A DNA stretch of 64,000 nt from Desulfonispora thiosulfatigenes DSM 11270 (GTDB lineage: Bacteria; Bacillota; Peptococcia; Peptococcales; Desulfonisporaceae). Where the stretch lies: positions 62,001-126,000 of the forward strand of contig NZ_FWWT01000013.1 of assembly GCF_900176035.1 (NCBI RefSeq), written 5' to 3'. Of the stretch, positions 13,192-55,978 are shown one piece after another. The notes under the pieces are model-generated. The model was not told where the DNA came from, searched no databases, and saw only the letters and a program-made list of their open reading frames with translations. The position numbers were made by a program, and so were the translations under genes. Every line of letters begins with the position of its first letter. The first letter of the stretch is position 1.

Positions 13192-13350
13192 ATAAAACCG
13201 CTTCTATAATAAGAAGCGGTCATTAAATACCATAACTATCTACCTCTTATCTTCCAGGAATAAATCCTGCTGGAATTAGCACATTTCTAGCTTTGTTGCT
13301 AGTTGTTGCCGGGCTTCATAGGGCCAGTTCCCTCCACCACTCTTGATAAA
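13192..13350 (-). promoter_or_regulatory. SAM-I (S-box) riboswitch with terminator
   Basis: Read on the minus strand from 13350: CTTATCAAGAGTGGTGGAGG, then the AACTGGCCCTATGAAGCCCG core and GGCAACAACTAGC. This is the conserved S-box P1/P2/kink-turn sequence. It is followed by a helix TGCTAATTCCAGCAGGA and, at 13220-13192, a strong terminator ACCGCTTC ... GAAGCGGT with a T-rich tail. SAM binding should favour termination and shut off metH-metF and the reactivation gene. Confidence 0.96.
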
Positions 13351-13376
13351 ATGTAATCTAATATTTTATTTTCTTT

Positions 13377-19115: not shown

Positions 19116-20450
19116 TCAAAATTTAGTTAAATATTCATCTACTTCCCATTGATGTACCCTTGATGCAAAGTTATGCCATTCTAATTTTTTAGCTTCTAAG
19201 TAAAGAGGGTGAACATGGTCCCCCATTGCTTTTTTAATAAAATCATCTTTTTCTAATTCTAAAATAGCCTCAAATAAATTGCCAGGCAAATTATCAATTC
19301 CTGCCTCAGTTCTTTCTTCAGGAGTCATCTCATAAATATTAACATTAGTAGGTTCAGGTGGATTTATTTTTTTCTCAATACCTTCAAGCCCAGCTTGTAA
19401 AGCTGCAGCCATAGTAAAGTACGGGTTACACGAAGGGTCTGGATTTCTTAATTCGACTCTAGTAGAAGCTCCTCTTTTAGCAGGAACTCTAATTAAAGGG
19501 CTTCTGTTCTTTCCTGACCATGCAATATAAACAGGAGCCTCATAACCTGGAACAAGTCTCTTATATGAATTAACTGTTGGGTTTGTAATGGCTGCCATGC
19601 CTTTAATGTGTTTAAAAATCCCACCCATAAAATAATAAGCTGCTTGCGATAAACCATCTTTACCATTTTCATCATAAAAAGCATTTGTACCATCAACAGT
19701 AGATAAAGACATATTTGTATGCATTCCTGATCCAGCTATTCCAAAAACAGGCTTGGGCATAAAGGAAGCATGAAGACCATGTCTTTGCGCGATAACCCTA
19801 ACTACATAACGAAATGTCATAATATTATCCGCAGCTGAAATTGCTTCGCTATATTTAAACCCAATCTCATGCTGACCAGGTGCTAATTCATGGTGAGAGG
19901 CTTCTACTTCAAAGCCCATTTTTTCTAAATTAATTACCATATCTCTACGTGCATTTTCACCTAAATCCACAGGAGCCATATCAAAGTATCCTGCTTTATC
20001 ATGCGTCTTTATTGTCGGCACACCTTCACTATCTGTATGAAAAAGGAAAAACTCGCACTCTGGACCAACGTTTAATGTATATCCCATATCTAAGGCCTTT
20101 TGGGTTGCTCTTTTTAAAATGTAACGAGGATCACCTTCAAAAGGAGTGCCGTCTGGATTATAAATATCACAAATTAATCTTGCCTCGGCTCCTTCTCCTT
20201 GAGTCCACGGATAGATTACAAAGGTATTTGGATCTGGGCGTAAGTACATATCAGATTCCTCAATCCGAACATATCCTTCAATAGAAGAACCATCAAACAT
20301 TAGTTCATTATTTAAAGCCTTTTCTAATTGTTTCTCTGTTATTGCAACATTTTTCAAAATACCAAACATATCTGTAAATTGAAGTCTTATAAACTTAACA
20401 TTGTTTTCCTTAGCCATTCTTAAAACGTCTTGGACAGTTAAGTCTGCCAT
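19116..20450 (-). CDS. glnA: Glutamine synthetase, type I
   Basis: 444 residues from ATG 20450, placed by GGGGGA six bases upstream; the frame itself extends to 20558 without a ribosome-binding site. It has the beta-Grasp N-terminus with LMFDGSSIEGYVRIEESDM, the catalytic-domain motifs NVGPECEFFLF, HHELAPGQHEIGFKY, PVFGIAGSGMHTNMSL and the ATP-binding KRLVPGYEAPVYIAWSGKNR, and the Glu flap segment RVELRNPDPSCNPY. The adenylylation tyrosine region of proteobacterial enzymes is not evident. This is the GSI-alpha type of Firmicutes. It is preceded by its own promoter and an attenuator-like leader, behind an ANTAR regulator gene. Confidence 0.96.
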   Translation of the reverse strand: MADLTVQDVLRMAKENNVKFIRLQFTDMFGILKNVAITEKQLEKALNNELMFDGSSIEGYVRIEESDMYLRPDPNTFVIYPWTQGEGAEARLICDIYNPDGTPFEGDPRYILKRATQKALDMGYTLNVGPECEFFLFHTDSEGVPTIKTHDKAGYFDMAPVDLGENARRDMVINLEKMGFEVEASHHELAPGQHEIGFKYSEAISAADNIMTFRYVVRVIAQRHGLHASFMPKPVFGIAGSGMHTNMSLSTVDGTNAFYDENGKDGLSQAAYYFMGGIFKHIKGMAAITNPTVNSYKRLVPGYEAPVYIAWSGKNRSPLIRVPAKRGASTRVELRNPDPSCNPYFTMAAALQAGLEGIEKKINPPEPTNVNIYEMTPEERTEAGIDNLPGNLFEAILELEKDDFIKKAMGDHVHPLYLEAKKLEWHNFASRVHQWEVDEYLTKF

Positions 20451-20466
20451 TTTAATTCCCCCATAT

Positions 20467-20532
20467 AATAAAATAAGGTGCCTAAACATACAGAAAATCA
20501 AGGATAATCTGCTGCTTAGAGCACCATTGCTC
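20467..20532 (-). promoter_or_regulatory. Attenuator-like glnA leader with ANTAR-type hexaloop
   Basis: On the minus strand, GAGC-AATGGT-GCTC (20532-20519) is a small hairpin whose six-base loop has A at position 1 and G at position 4, the rule for ANTAR-bound RNA hairpins. Its 3' half is also needed for a longer stem: GGTGC (20525-20521) pairs with GCACC (20481-20477), extended by CTAA/TTAG with a bulged base and an inner CAGA/TCTG. TTATTTTATT follows. The two structures exclude each other, as expected for antitermination. A second hexaloop hairpin, normal in ANTAR targets, is not found. Confidence 0.55.
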
Positions 20533-20556
20533 ACAAAAACTATTTTAATAGCTATC

Positions 20557-20585
20557 ATTATAGTACCTTATCTAATTATTGTCAA
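20557..20585 (-). promoter_or_regulatory. Consensus sigma-A promoter of glnA
   Basis: TTGACA (20585-20580), exactly 17 bases, TATAAT (20562-20557). It lies between the ANTAR gene stop and glnA, so glnA can be transcribed separately. Confidence 0.92.
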
Positions 20586-20589
20586 GAAA

Positions 20590-21144
20590 TCATGAAAAGT
20601 TAGTTATTATTGCCTTAGCAATTTTTTTCATACTTACTCTCTTTTCCATACTTAATTTCCGCAATTTATCATAAGCTTGTTCTTCTGAAAATCCTTTTTT
20701 CATTAATATTCCTTTTGCTTTTTCAATTAATTTTCTACTTTCTAAGGTATCTTTTAAGCTATTTACTTCTTCTTCTAAATGTCTTTGATTTTCAAAATTA
20801 TTAAGTGCTAATTTTAGTGTATTGATTAACGTATATTCTTGAATAGGTTTTGTAATCACACCAAATATAGAAGGTATTTCATCCCCAAAAGATAATTCTC
20901 CTTGGACAATTAATATTACTGGGCCTAACTTTTCTTCAGAGATTATTTTAGCAAGCTGTAGACCACTCATTCCTGATAAATCCGTATCAATTATACTTAA
21001 AGAAATTTCTTTACTTCTTAATGTCCTAAGCACTAAATATGCATCATTTACTATAGAATTAACTTTATAGCCATGGGAGGTAAGAATGTTCTTAATCTTT
21101 TGATCTTGCTTAGTATTATTAACTGCTAGTAGAATTTTCCTCAC
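20590..21144 (-). CDS. ANTAR-domain response regulator with degenerate receiver
   Basis: 184 residues. The receiver domain (about 1-118) keeps the phosphoacceptor-like Asp in SIIDTDLSGMSGLQ and the Lys in VITKPIQ. Its acidic pocket is lost: the first strand reads ILLAVNNTK, where VDD is normal. A coiled linker follows, then the RNA-binding ANTAR domain (about 125-182): RKLIEKAKGILMKKGFSEEQ, then AYDKLRKLSMEKRVSM. ANTAR proteins prevent transcription termination by binding paired hexaloop hairpins. Its position directly before glnA, whose leader has a candidate target, suggests control of nitrogen assimilation, possibly without phosphorylation. Confidence 0.88.
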   Translation of the reverse strand: MRKILLAVNNTKQDQKIKNILTSHGYKVNSIVNDAYLVLRTLRSKEISLSIIDTDLSGMSGLQLAKIISEEKLGPVILIVQGELSFGDEIPSIFGVITKPIQEYTLINTLKLALNNFENQRHLEEEVNSLKDTLESRKLIEKAKGILMKKGFSEEQAYDKLRKLSMEKRVSMKKIAKAIITNFS

Positions 21145-21198: not shown

Positions 21199-21858
21199 CT
21201 AAGATATTTTAGCTATCCCTTCTTGGATCCATTCTAATAATTTAAATTTAATAACTATTTGATTTTCATGAGATTCTTTATTTTTAACGCCTTCATTTTC
21301 ACTCAAATTTTCCTGACCTTCATTACTCCCCGCGATTTCATTATTACCTGCTAATGGCACAGAATAGCCATTTTTAATTTCACTTGATTCTTCCTTTTGA
21401 ACAAAACACATAGGAGGAAATAGTACACACCACCAATTAGCTCCGCTGCCATTACCAATTACAACTCTCAGTGCTTCGTATTCTCCGGCTGGTAAACTAA
21501 AATCTCCATAATATTTTGTCGGAAAATTAAAATTTCCTATTTCAGTATGTACATCATAATCACTACCCAGACTAATTAACTTTTCTTTAGCCACTTGTTC
21601 TATTTCGGGTAAATGTTCATCTAAATATGCTCTTGTTTCATCTATATTTTTATTATTAGCCAGCCTTGGTCCAAACTGTTTTACAATTTCATCTTTAACC
21701 TTATACTTTAAATCTTGATCAGCCTGACTATCACTATTAGCTAATACATGAAGTCTAATTAAACTATCATTGTCATTACCTACTGGTTCTCCTGCTGAAC
21801 TAATAATACTATTTAAGAATAAAAATTGAATAATTGCGATAATTAATAATTTTTTCAT
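21199..21858 (-). CDS. spoIIR: Stage II sporulation protein R
   Basis: 219 residues with an N-terminal signal or anchor (KKLLIIAIIQFLFLNSIISS) followed by the SpoIIR domain: LIRLHVLANSDSQADQDLKY, then VKDEIVKQFG, a YYGDFSLPAGEYEALRVVIG segment, and GANWWCVLFPPMCFV. SpoIIR is made in the forespore and exported to the intermembrane space, where it activates SpoIIGA and so sigma-E in the mother cell. The C-terminal tail, rich in Glu and Asn, is variable in the family. GGGGGA precedes the ATG. The gene alone shows that the organism is a sporeformer. Confidence 0.93.
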   Translation of the reverse strand: MKKLLIIAIIQFLFLNSIISSAGEPVGNDNDSLIRLHVLANSDSQADQDLKYKVKDEIVKQFGPRLANNKNIDETRAYLDEHLPEIEQVAKEKLISLGSDYDVHTEIGNFNFPTKYYGDFSLPAGEYEALRVVIGNGSGANWWCVLFPPMCFVQKEESSEIKNGYSVPLAGNNEIAGSNEGQENLSENEGVKNKESHENQIVIKFKLLEWIQEGIAKIS

Positions 21859-23683: not shown

Positions 23684-25120
23684 TTATCTTCCAACAAACA
23701 TTTGAGTAAACATCATTCCATAAGGTCCACCCTTTACTATTCCAATACCGATATGAGTAAAGTTAGGATTTAGAATATTTCTTCTATGTCCCTCAGAATT
23801 CATTAAAGCCTGATGAGCTGCTGCTACACTTTGATTACCTGCTAAGTTTTCTCCTGCTGTTCTGTACGTAACCCCATATTTCTTCATCATATCAAATGGA
23901 GATCCATATGTAGGAGAAGTGTGTGAAAAATAATTTTTATCAATCATATCTTGAGACTTTAATTTAGCTAATTCTACTAACTTAGCATCCATAACTAATG
24001 GTTTTAATCCACTTTTAGCTCTTTCAGCATTAATTAATGTTAACATTTCTTGCTCTAAATTATTAGTATTACTTGGCTTAGTTACAGTTTGCTCTGGATT
24101 TGTAGTAGTCTTACTTTGCGGTTTGATAAAAACTTCTACAATTGTGTATCTATTAGCTTTATCCTTTGCAATCCCAAGTCCTAATTCTTTATATTCAGTA
24201 TTTAAAATATTATTTTTATCCCTACTTGAGTTCATTAAAGCTTTATGAGCAGCATTAAGATCATACGCCCTTACAATGCTTTCATTTACTTTATCAAAAG
24301 CGATACTTTTACTTTTTAAAATATCTGTAGTTGTGCCATAGGTTTTAGAAAATGCTGATAAATATCCTTTAGTAACCATATCATCTGCCTTTAACTGTGC
24401 AACATCAGATAAATCTGCTTTTAATGTTAAAGGGCTAAGACCTGCTTTTTTTCTTTCTCCATTAATTAAACCTTCTAAAGTTTTTACTAAATTTTGATTA
24501 GTCTCTCCATTTGGATTAACTTCTGGCTTAGGCTCCGGCTTTGGAGTTGGTTTTACTTCAGGTTTAGGCTCTGGAGTTGGTTCAGGCTTCACCTCTGGTT
24601 TAGGTGTTGGTTCTGGTTTAGTAGGCTCGGAATTTTGCGCAAAGTTAGGATTTCCTACGAAAATTTGAGTTATCATCATTCCATAAGGTCCACCTTTAAC
24701 TATACCAATTCCTACATGAGTAAAAGCACTATTTAAAATATTTCTTCTATGCCCCTGTGAGTTCATTAGTGAATTATGTGCACCTTGGACATCATTATTA
24801 CCGGCTATATTTTCACCTGCAGTTCTGTAGGTAATACCATTGTTTTTTAACATATCAAATGGACTCCCGTATGTTGGTGAAGTGTGTGAAAAATAATTTT
24901 TATCTATCATATCCTGAGACTTTAAACGTGCAAGATTTACTAATTCATTATTCATTTGAAGTGGCTTTAAACCTTGAACTTTTCTCGCTTCATTCACGTA
25001 ATTTAACATTTGTTGTTCTAAACTATTTGGTGCTACGTCCTTTGCAAATGCGACTGTTGGTAAAACAGAAAATATAAAAGCAAAAACTAATAAATAAGCT
25101 AACAACTTCTTATTATTCAA
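23684..25120 (-). CDS. Secreted protein with three CAP (SCP-like) domains
   Basis: 478 residues: signal peptide (KKLLAYLLVFAFIFSVLPTV), CAP domain 1 (about 30-165), a proline/glutamate-rich linker of PEPTPKPEVK-like repeats (about 166-208), CAP domain 2 (about 210-335), a short linker, and CAP domain 3 (about 355-478). Domains 1 and 3 are nearly identical and keep the YkwD hallmarks KNYFSHTSPTYGSPFDM, GENIAGN or GENLAGN, and GHRRNILN. Domain 2 has lost the key histidines (YLSAFSK, RDKNNILN). The start is TTG with a GGGGGG ribosome-binding site. The function is unknown; the family is common in sporeformer exosporium or coat and on the cell surface. Confidence 0.9.
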   Translation of the reverse strand: MNNKKLLAYLLVFAFIFSVLPTVAFAKDVAPNSLEQQMLNYVNEARKVQGLKPLQMNNELVNLARLKSQDMIDKNYFSHTSPTYGSPFDMLKNNGITYRTAGENIAGNNDVQGAHNSLMNSQGHRRNILNSAFTHVGIGIVKGGPYGMMITQIFVGNPNFAQNSEPTKPEPTPKPEVKPEPTPEPKPEVKPTPKPEPKPEVNPNGETNQNLVKTLEGLINGERKKAGLSPLTLKADLSDVAQLKADDMVTKGYLSAFSKTYGTTTDILKSKSIAFDKVNESIVRAYDLNAAHKALMNSSRDKNNILNTEYKELGLGIAKDKANRYTIVEVFIKPQSKTTTNPEQTVTKPSNTNNLEQEMLTLINAERAKSGLKPLVMDAKLVELAKLKSQDMIDKNYFSHTSPTYGSPFDMMKKYGVTYRTAGENLAGNQSVAAAHQALMNSEGHRRNILNPNFTHIGIGIVKGGPYGMMFTQMFVGR

Positions 25121-55710: not shown

Positions 55711-55978
55711 TGTCGTGCACCTAACTTCGAAGCTAATCTTCCGGACGTTACCTAGGTAGTTTGCTCGGATCAGGCTGACCCACGGCACACGCAAGGTCTT
55801 ACTTACCGCTGCTTCCTTCCGGATCTGACGGGGTTCATAAGTTTGCGTTGCGCGGGACCCAATCGTCAACACCACTTGCCTAGGGCAGACTCCACAAGAT
55901 TAGTCCTCAGTTAGACATCGACCCCGCTATAGCGGATTGCGGGTTACAAGGCACCGCTACCTCCCCATCTAGCACGAC
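55711..55978 (-). ncRNA. scr: Signal recognition particle RNA, large Bacillus type
   Basis: About 268 bases. The 5' end GTCGTGCTAGATGGGGAGGT and the 3' end GGTGCACGAC pair to close the molecule. The Alu domain has GGTAGCGGTGCCTTGTAACC and GCAATCCGCTATAGCGGG. The Ffh-binding loop is present as CAGATCCGGAAGGAAGCAGC. The large form with helices 1-5 and an Alu part is typical of Bacillus and many Clostridia. Its place directly before dnaX is conserved in Firmicutes. Confidence 0.97.

Follow-up and report, generated by a model that had tools for sequence, protein, structure and literature searches.

Our analysis indicates, with a probability that we put at roughly 0.75, that the glutamine synthetase gene glnA of Desulfonispora thiosulfatigenes DSM 11270 lies behind an ANTAR-controlled attenuator, at which a protein with a pseudo-receiver acts on a target carrying one hexaloop. 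This account rests on conserved and covarying alternative hairpins, on a conserved gene pairing and on retained RNA-contact residues. Systems of this general kind are known; less expected is that a pseudo-receiver, an apparently single-hexaloop target and only one detectable target gene occur together. Two usual components, the phosphorylation trigger and the second RNA hairpin, appear to have been lost in this lineage.

The glnA leader and its conservation

The source organism is an anaerobic spore-former, whose genome comprises 2.41 Mb and is 99.6% complete. The window, that is, the whole stretch of 64,000 nt analysed here from contig NZ_FWWT01000013.1, has a GC content of 32%. Genes on its minus strand run in the order spoIIR, ANTAR gene, leader, glnA and GNAT acetyltransferase (Table 1), and the genome encodes no further ANTAR protein. 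Five relatives that belong to the same order but to a different family (loci L003 to L007), among them Clostridiaceae bacterium BRH_c20a and two Clostridia MAGs, maintain the arrangement from spoIIR to glnA, leader included; together with the window they make up what we call the clade, with six leaders. More broadly, in 94 of the 186 related ANTAR loci sampled, glnA follows the ANTAR gene in the same orientation at a distance of at most 600 bp.

Table 1. Position and basis of the features between spoIIR and glnA in the window
Feature	Position	Strand	Basis or remark
spoIIR	21199-21858	-	First gene of the spoIIR-ANTAR-leader-glnA series
REC-ANTAR gene, 184 aa	20590-21144	-	PF03861, 69.5 bits; PF00072, 37 bits
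Sigma-70 promoter TTGACA-17-TATAAT	20585-20557	-	12/12 consensus; directly 3' of the ANTAR stop codon
Sole P1-like candidate UAAA-AUAGUU-UUUG, probably no real hairpin	20547-20534	-	A1/G4 loop; unstable
P2 antiterminator hairpin (ANTAR hexaloop) GAGC-AAUGGU-GCUC	20532-20519	-	Sequence, conservation, covariation
Intrinsic terminator stem-loop	20525-20477	-	Fold; 9 bp covarying stem
U-rich run of the terminator, TTATTTTATT	20476-20467	-	Sequence; end of the covariance model match
Shine-Dalgarno-like GGGGG	20462-20458	-	7 nt upstream of the glnA ATG
glnA, type I glutamine synthetase, 444 aa	19116-20450	-	TIGR00653, 572.6 bits

A TATAAT -10 box, read by eye, stands at the equivalent position in all five order relatives. 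An earlier note on this DNA had described a hairpin that shares bases with a terminator-like stem and whose loop starts with A and has G as its fourth base, and both sequence and fold confirm it. The 5' arm of the terminator overlaps the loop and the 3' stem of P2 (GGUGCUC); the long terminator stem starts with this GGUGCUC and is closed by UUAGGCACC, followed by UUAUUUUAUU. The leader has a minimum free energy of -26.3 kcal/mol (z -3.0), and its unconstrained fold is the terminator form. In the window, as in its clade relatives, the P2 hexaloop hairpin can be forced only at a computed cost of 7-9 kcal/mol, so that a binder is needed. P2 and the terminator are mutually exclusive, which matches the expectation for a protein-dependent antiterminator.

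The hairpin GAGC-AA[T/C/A]GG[C/T]-GCTC and a terminator are present in all six clade leaders. Over 26 ANTAR-glnA leaders the P2 stem is 95% paired, with two-sided changes in three of its four pairs, while the terminator stem of 9 bp is 89% paired (39-62% for slid controls), with two-sided changes in seven of nine pairs. Since an exact gapped DNA pattern matched just three of the six clade leaders, we used a covariance model instead; built from the alignment of the 26 leaders, with the window sequence itself included, it gives 42 bits for the site in the window and no more than ~15 bits anywhere else in it. The conservation in the clade, the covariation of both stems and this difference in score show that the leader signal is beyond chance. 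Conservation of the leader in relatives, on which the earlier proposal depended, is thereby established, and the proposal itself, namely that the adjacent ANTAR protein controls glnA by antitermination, is strongly supported by conservation and covariation. As far as sequence comparison can tell, such control is very probable.

Across the whole source genome, the next matches of the covariance model (24.7 and 23.0 bits) both fall within coding sequence and were rejected as further targets for that reason, and one strong ANTAR target is detectable by sequence. Applied to the relatives, the covariance model picks up additional plausible targets that score 26-40 bits (L127, L135 and L139), so leaders of genes other than glnA are within its reach. 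An AxxG hexaloop over a terminator was found in 53 non-redundant glnA leaders beside ANTAR genes, and many of these leaders carry another ANTAR hexaloop as well.

Several other ANTAR systems came to light in the relatives. There is a second ANTAR gene in order relatives (genomes G013, G006 and G003), which lies near a PII gene in G013 and G006. L127, L135 and L139 are all canonical dual-hexaloop leaders; L127 precedes this second ANTAR gene itself, the other two a glutamine synthetase III-like gene. Because L135 and L139 belong to two clade relatives, leaders with one hexaloop and with two occur side by side in a single genome. L134 is a possible site upstream of nifH-PII genes. At four loci (L009, L011, L020 and L022) the gap between the ANTAR gene and glnA measures 25-86 bp and holds no detectable leader, so that any control element would be upstream of the ANTAR gene.

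The ANTAR protein and its receiver

The RNA-binding part of the protein looks intact. The ANTAR domain scores above the curated PF03861 cut-off of 27.3, and the AlphaFold model has a pLDDT of 92. The solved structures nearest to this model are those of EutV from Enterococcus faecalis with and without RNA (PDB 6WSH and 6WW6), which share the REC-ANTAR fold and rank first both in Foldseek (TM 0.81) and in phmmer, and then Rv1626 (1S8N), which has the same REC-ANTAR architecture. All six residues by which EutV contacts RNA (R142, K143, K147, K149, E160 and Y164) are identical in the window protein, where they are R137, K138, K142, K144, E154 and Y158.

The receiver is degenerate in its catalytic set (DD, D, T/S, K), which reads N9 N10 D53 V80 K99. 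The window protein thus lacks the full set of a phosphorylatable receiver: both metal-binding acids (DD1 and DD2) and the Thr/Ser are lost, that is, three of five catalytic positions. The earlier note was right that the acidic pocket is missing, and Val in place of Thr/Ser can be added to it, but it had passed over Asp53 and Lys99, which are retained. The acidic pair has become KN, KN, RT, NN and NN in the five order relatives; four of them keep the Asp, and in the ortholog at L006 it is replaced by Gly and the Lys by Gln. The receivers of the clade are pseudo-receivers, as they fit the definition given with the catalytic set in PMC12632262. The first acid is lost in most ANTAR proteins beside glnA, and typical DE/DD pairs are common among ANTAR proteins not beside glnA. 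A search for the HisKA_2 kinase family gave no match in six genomes, the window's own included, and no kinase was seen among the five genes scanned around the locus. A PII protein was not found in the 99.6% complete source genome.

A signal independent of phosphorylation, as suggested earlier, is plausible given the loss of three of five positions, the ortholog without Asp and the absence of a HisKA_2 kinase, but the retention of Asp53 and Lys99, and a kinase search confined to the HisKA_2 family, leave it short of proof. On balance, we think it likely that the receiver does not operate by normal phosphorylation.

The number of hexaloops in the target

P1 is the first, or recruitment, hairpin of the classic dual motif. 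Among 47 non-redundant leaders outside the clade, 27 carry a P1 hexaloop hairpin, as opposed to ~2% of shuffled sequences; it lies 0-14 nt upstream of P2 and its stem is often of the GTAC type. Within the clade none of the six leaders has a convincing P1, and four of them (L004 to L007) lack any candidate. The window candidate has the loop AUAGUU with A1/G4 and stands 1 nt from P2, but its computed energy is +2.6 kcal/mol and ~9% of shuffles do equally well. L003 has a marginal 5-bp P1 of -1.3 kcal/mol, whose 5' arm may begin upstream of the transcript. Judged by eye from the distance to the -10 box, ~15 nt seem to be transcribed ahead of P2 in L005, too few for a P1 hairpin. The previous observation of only one clear hairpin is thus supported across the lineage, and the glnA leader is reasonably likely to be a single-hexaloop target.

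Since the six clade leaders are related, they represent at most one evolutionary event. Outside the clade the absence of P1 is overcounted, because our crude detection missed a P1 with one mismatch in L048 and took P1 for P2 in L008. Leaders there whose receiver has Asp at DD2 number 24 with P1 and 17 without it, and those with another residue three and three; a general rule tying P1 loss to the loss of receiver acids finds no support. P1 loss is also not unique to the clade: another family has a long hairpin, ctttagggcAACGGCgtcctgaag, without P1, and the second acid is kept in its receiver. In a separate family (L012, L168, L178, L180, L192, L198 and L215) glnA is preceded by one long hexaloop hairpin (around tttagggcAACGGCgtcctgaa), likewise lacking P1, and at several of these loci it comes directly after the ANTAR stop codon.

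Proposed mechanism and alternatives

We infer binding, termination and the direction of control, which would run as follows. By default, the nascent RNA would fold into the terminator and transcription would stop before glnA. The adjacent ANTAR protein, when active, would bind the hexaloop hairpin, and since P2 takes the same bases as the 5' arm of the terminator, the polymerase would continue into glnA, presumably under nitrogen limitation. The pseudo-receiver would probably be switched by a partner protein or a small molecule, not by phosphorylation, and in this way control dimerisation or RNA binding, and the target would carry one hexaloop instead of the classic two. A bolder version, which we hold to be rather doubtful, is a minimal ANTAR antitermination with a permanently active or ligand-gated pseudo-receiver and one hexaloop, lacking recruitment hairpin, kinase and PII. 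Within this minimal form the direct effector could be the product of the adjacent gene, feedback-inhibited glutamine synthetase, or a nitrogen metabolite, by analogy with GlnR in Bacillus.

There are three alternative explanations. Under canonical two-component control, acetyl phosphate or a kinase that escaped recognition would phosphorylate Asp53, and the protein would dimerise as EutV does. This would draw on the retained Asp53 and Lys99, on the Asp kept in most order relatives and on a kinase search that covered the HisKA_2 family alone; given that the receiver has lost both metal-binding acids as well as the Thr/Ser, that the L006 ortholog lacks even Asp and Lys, and that neither a HisKA_2 kinase in the six genomes nor any kinase among the five scanned genes around the locus was found, we find it quite unlikely. 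Somewhat less so, yet still unlikely, is a classic dual-hexaloop target, in which the weak P1 would fold on the protein and serve as a recruitment hairpin: the A1/G4 loop so close to P2 and the better candidate in L003 speak for it, and against it stand the unfavourable energy of the window candidate, the shuffles that equal it, the four clade leaders devoid of any candidate and the short transcribed stretch in L005. The attenuator might instead be under other control (a ligand-binding RNA, a T-box or GlnR), the ANTAR neighbour being incidental. The identity of the signal leaves room for this; we nevertheless regard it as highly improbable, as the Rfam scan of the leader matched no riboswitch, T-box or other family, no GlnR/TnrA box was found in 20441-20800, and the hexaloop over a terminator recurs in the 53 ANTAR-adjacent glnA leaders.

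Against the ANTAR attenuator with pseudo-receiver and single hexaloop, it must be noted that some phosphorylation may occur, as Asp53 and Lys99 are kept. L003 does have its marginal P1, and both hexaloops are needed in vivo in the eut system of Enterococcus faecalis (PMC3369931, PMC8934654). Moreover, in the sequences compared, P1 loss and pocket loss are not cleanly linked, other lineages without P1 keeping DD2.

EutV is phosphorylated by EutW and eut leaders carry two hexaloops; AmiR is held by AmiC and its target is amiE. The window system shares with EutV and the eut leaders the six RNA-contact residues and an A1/G4 hexaloop overlapping a terminator, but differs in its degenerate receiver pocket, in the lack of a HisKA_2 match and in a P1 that is missing or unstable. 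Unlike the AmiR/AmiC system, no such partner gene is seen beside the window locus, and the target is glnA. AmiR of Pseudomonas is nonetheless similar in being a pseudo-receiver ANTAR protein without the residues needed to accept phosphate, albeit one controlled by a partner, whereas Rv1626 crystallised as a monomer and is thought to dimerise upon phosphorylation (both PMC8934654). NitR, described as an antiterminator protein of ammonia assimilation in Clostridium acetobutylicum (PMC4676874, citing Fierro-Monti 1992), resembles the window protein in that role and differs from the window system in that an antisense RNA is also involved, a comparison by description only. The general idea is not new, since Ramesh 2012 (PMC3369931), who defined the dual hexaloop, predicted that glutamine and glutamate synthase genes are preceded by ANTAR targets; those targets share the regulated pathway and the antitermination logic with the window leader, but were found with a dual-hairpin model, whereas the window leader apparently has a single hexaloop.

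ANTAR control of nitrogen genes is widespread, and the puzzle is how receivers switch without the usual phosphorylation; a 2025 review calls pseudo-receiver activation a mystery (PMC12632262). The source organism, in which a single ANTAR protein and a single detectable target were found but neither a HisKA_2 kinase nor a PII protein, offers a very simple system for finding the signal. It also provides a natural setting in which to ask whether antitermination can work with one hexaloop, a point left open by Walshe 2022 (PMC8934654), who presented the EutV-RNA structure and suggested a single hexaloop as the minimal motif.

Elsewhere on the minus strand, the window contains a SAM riboswitch (13244-13352; RF00162, 83.5 bits), a Bacterial large SRP RNA (55713-55977; RF01854, 211.7 bits) and a gene for a predicted secreted protein (23684-25120), in which three CAP/SCP-looking repeats with proline-rich linkers between them can be made out by eye.
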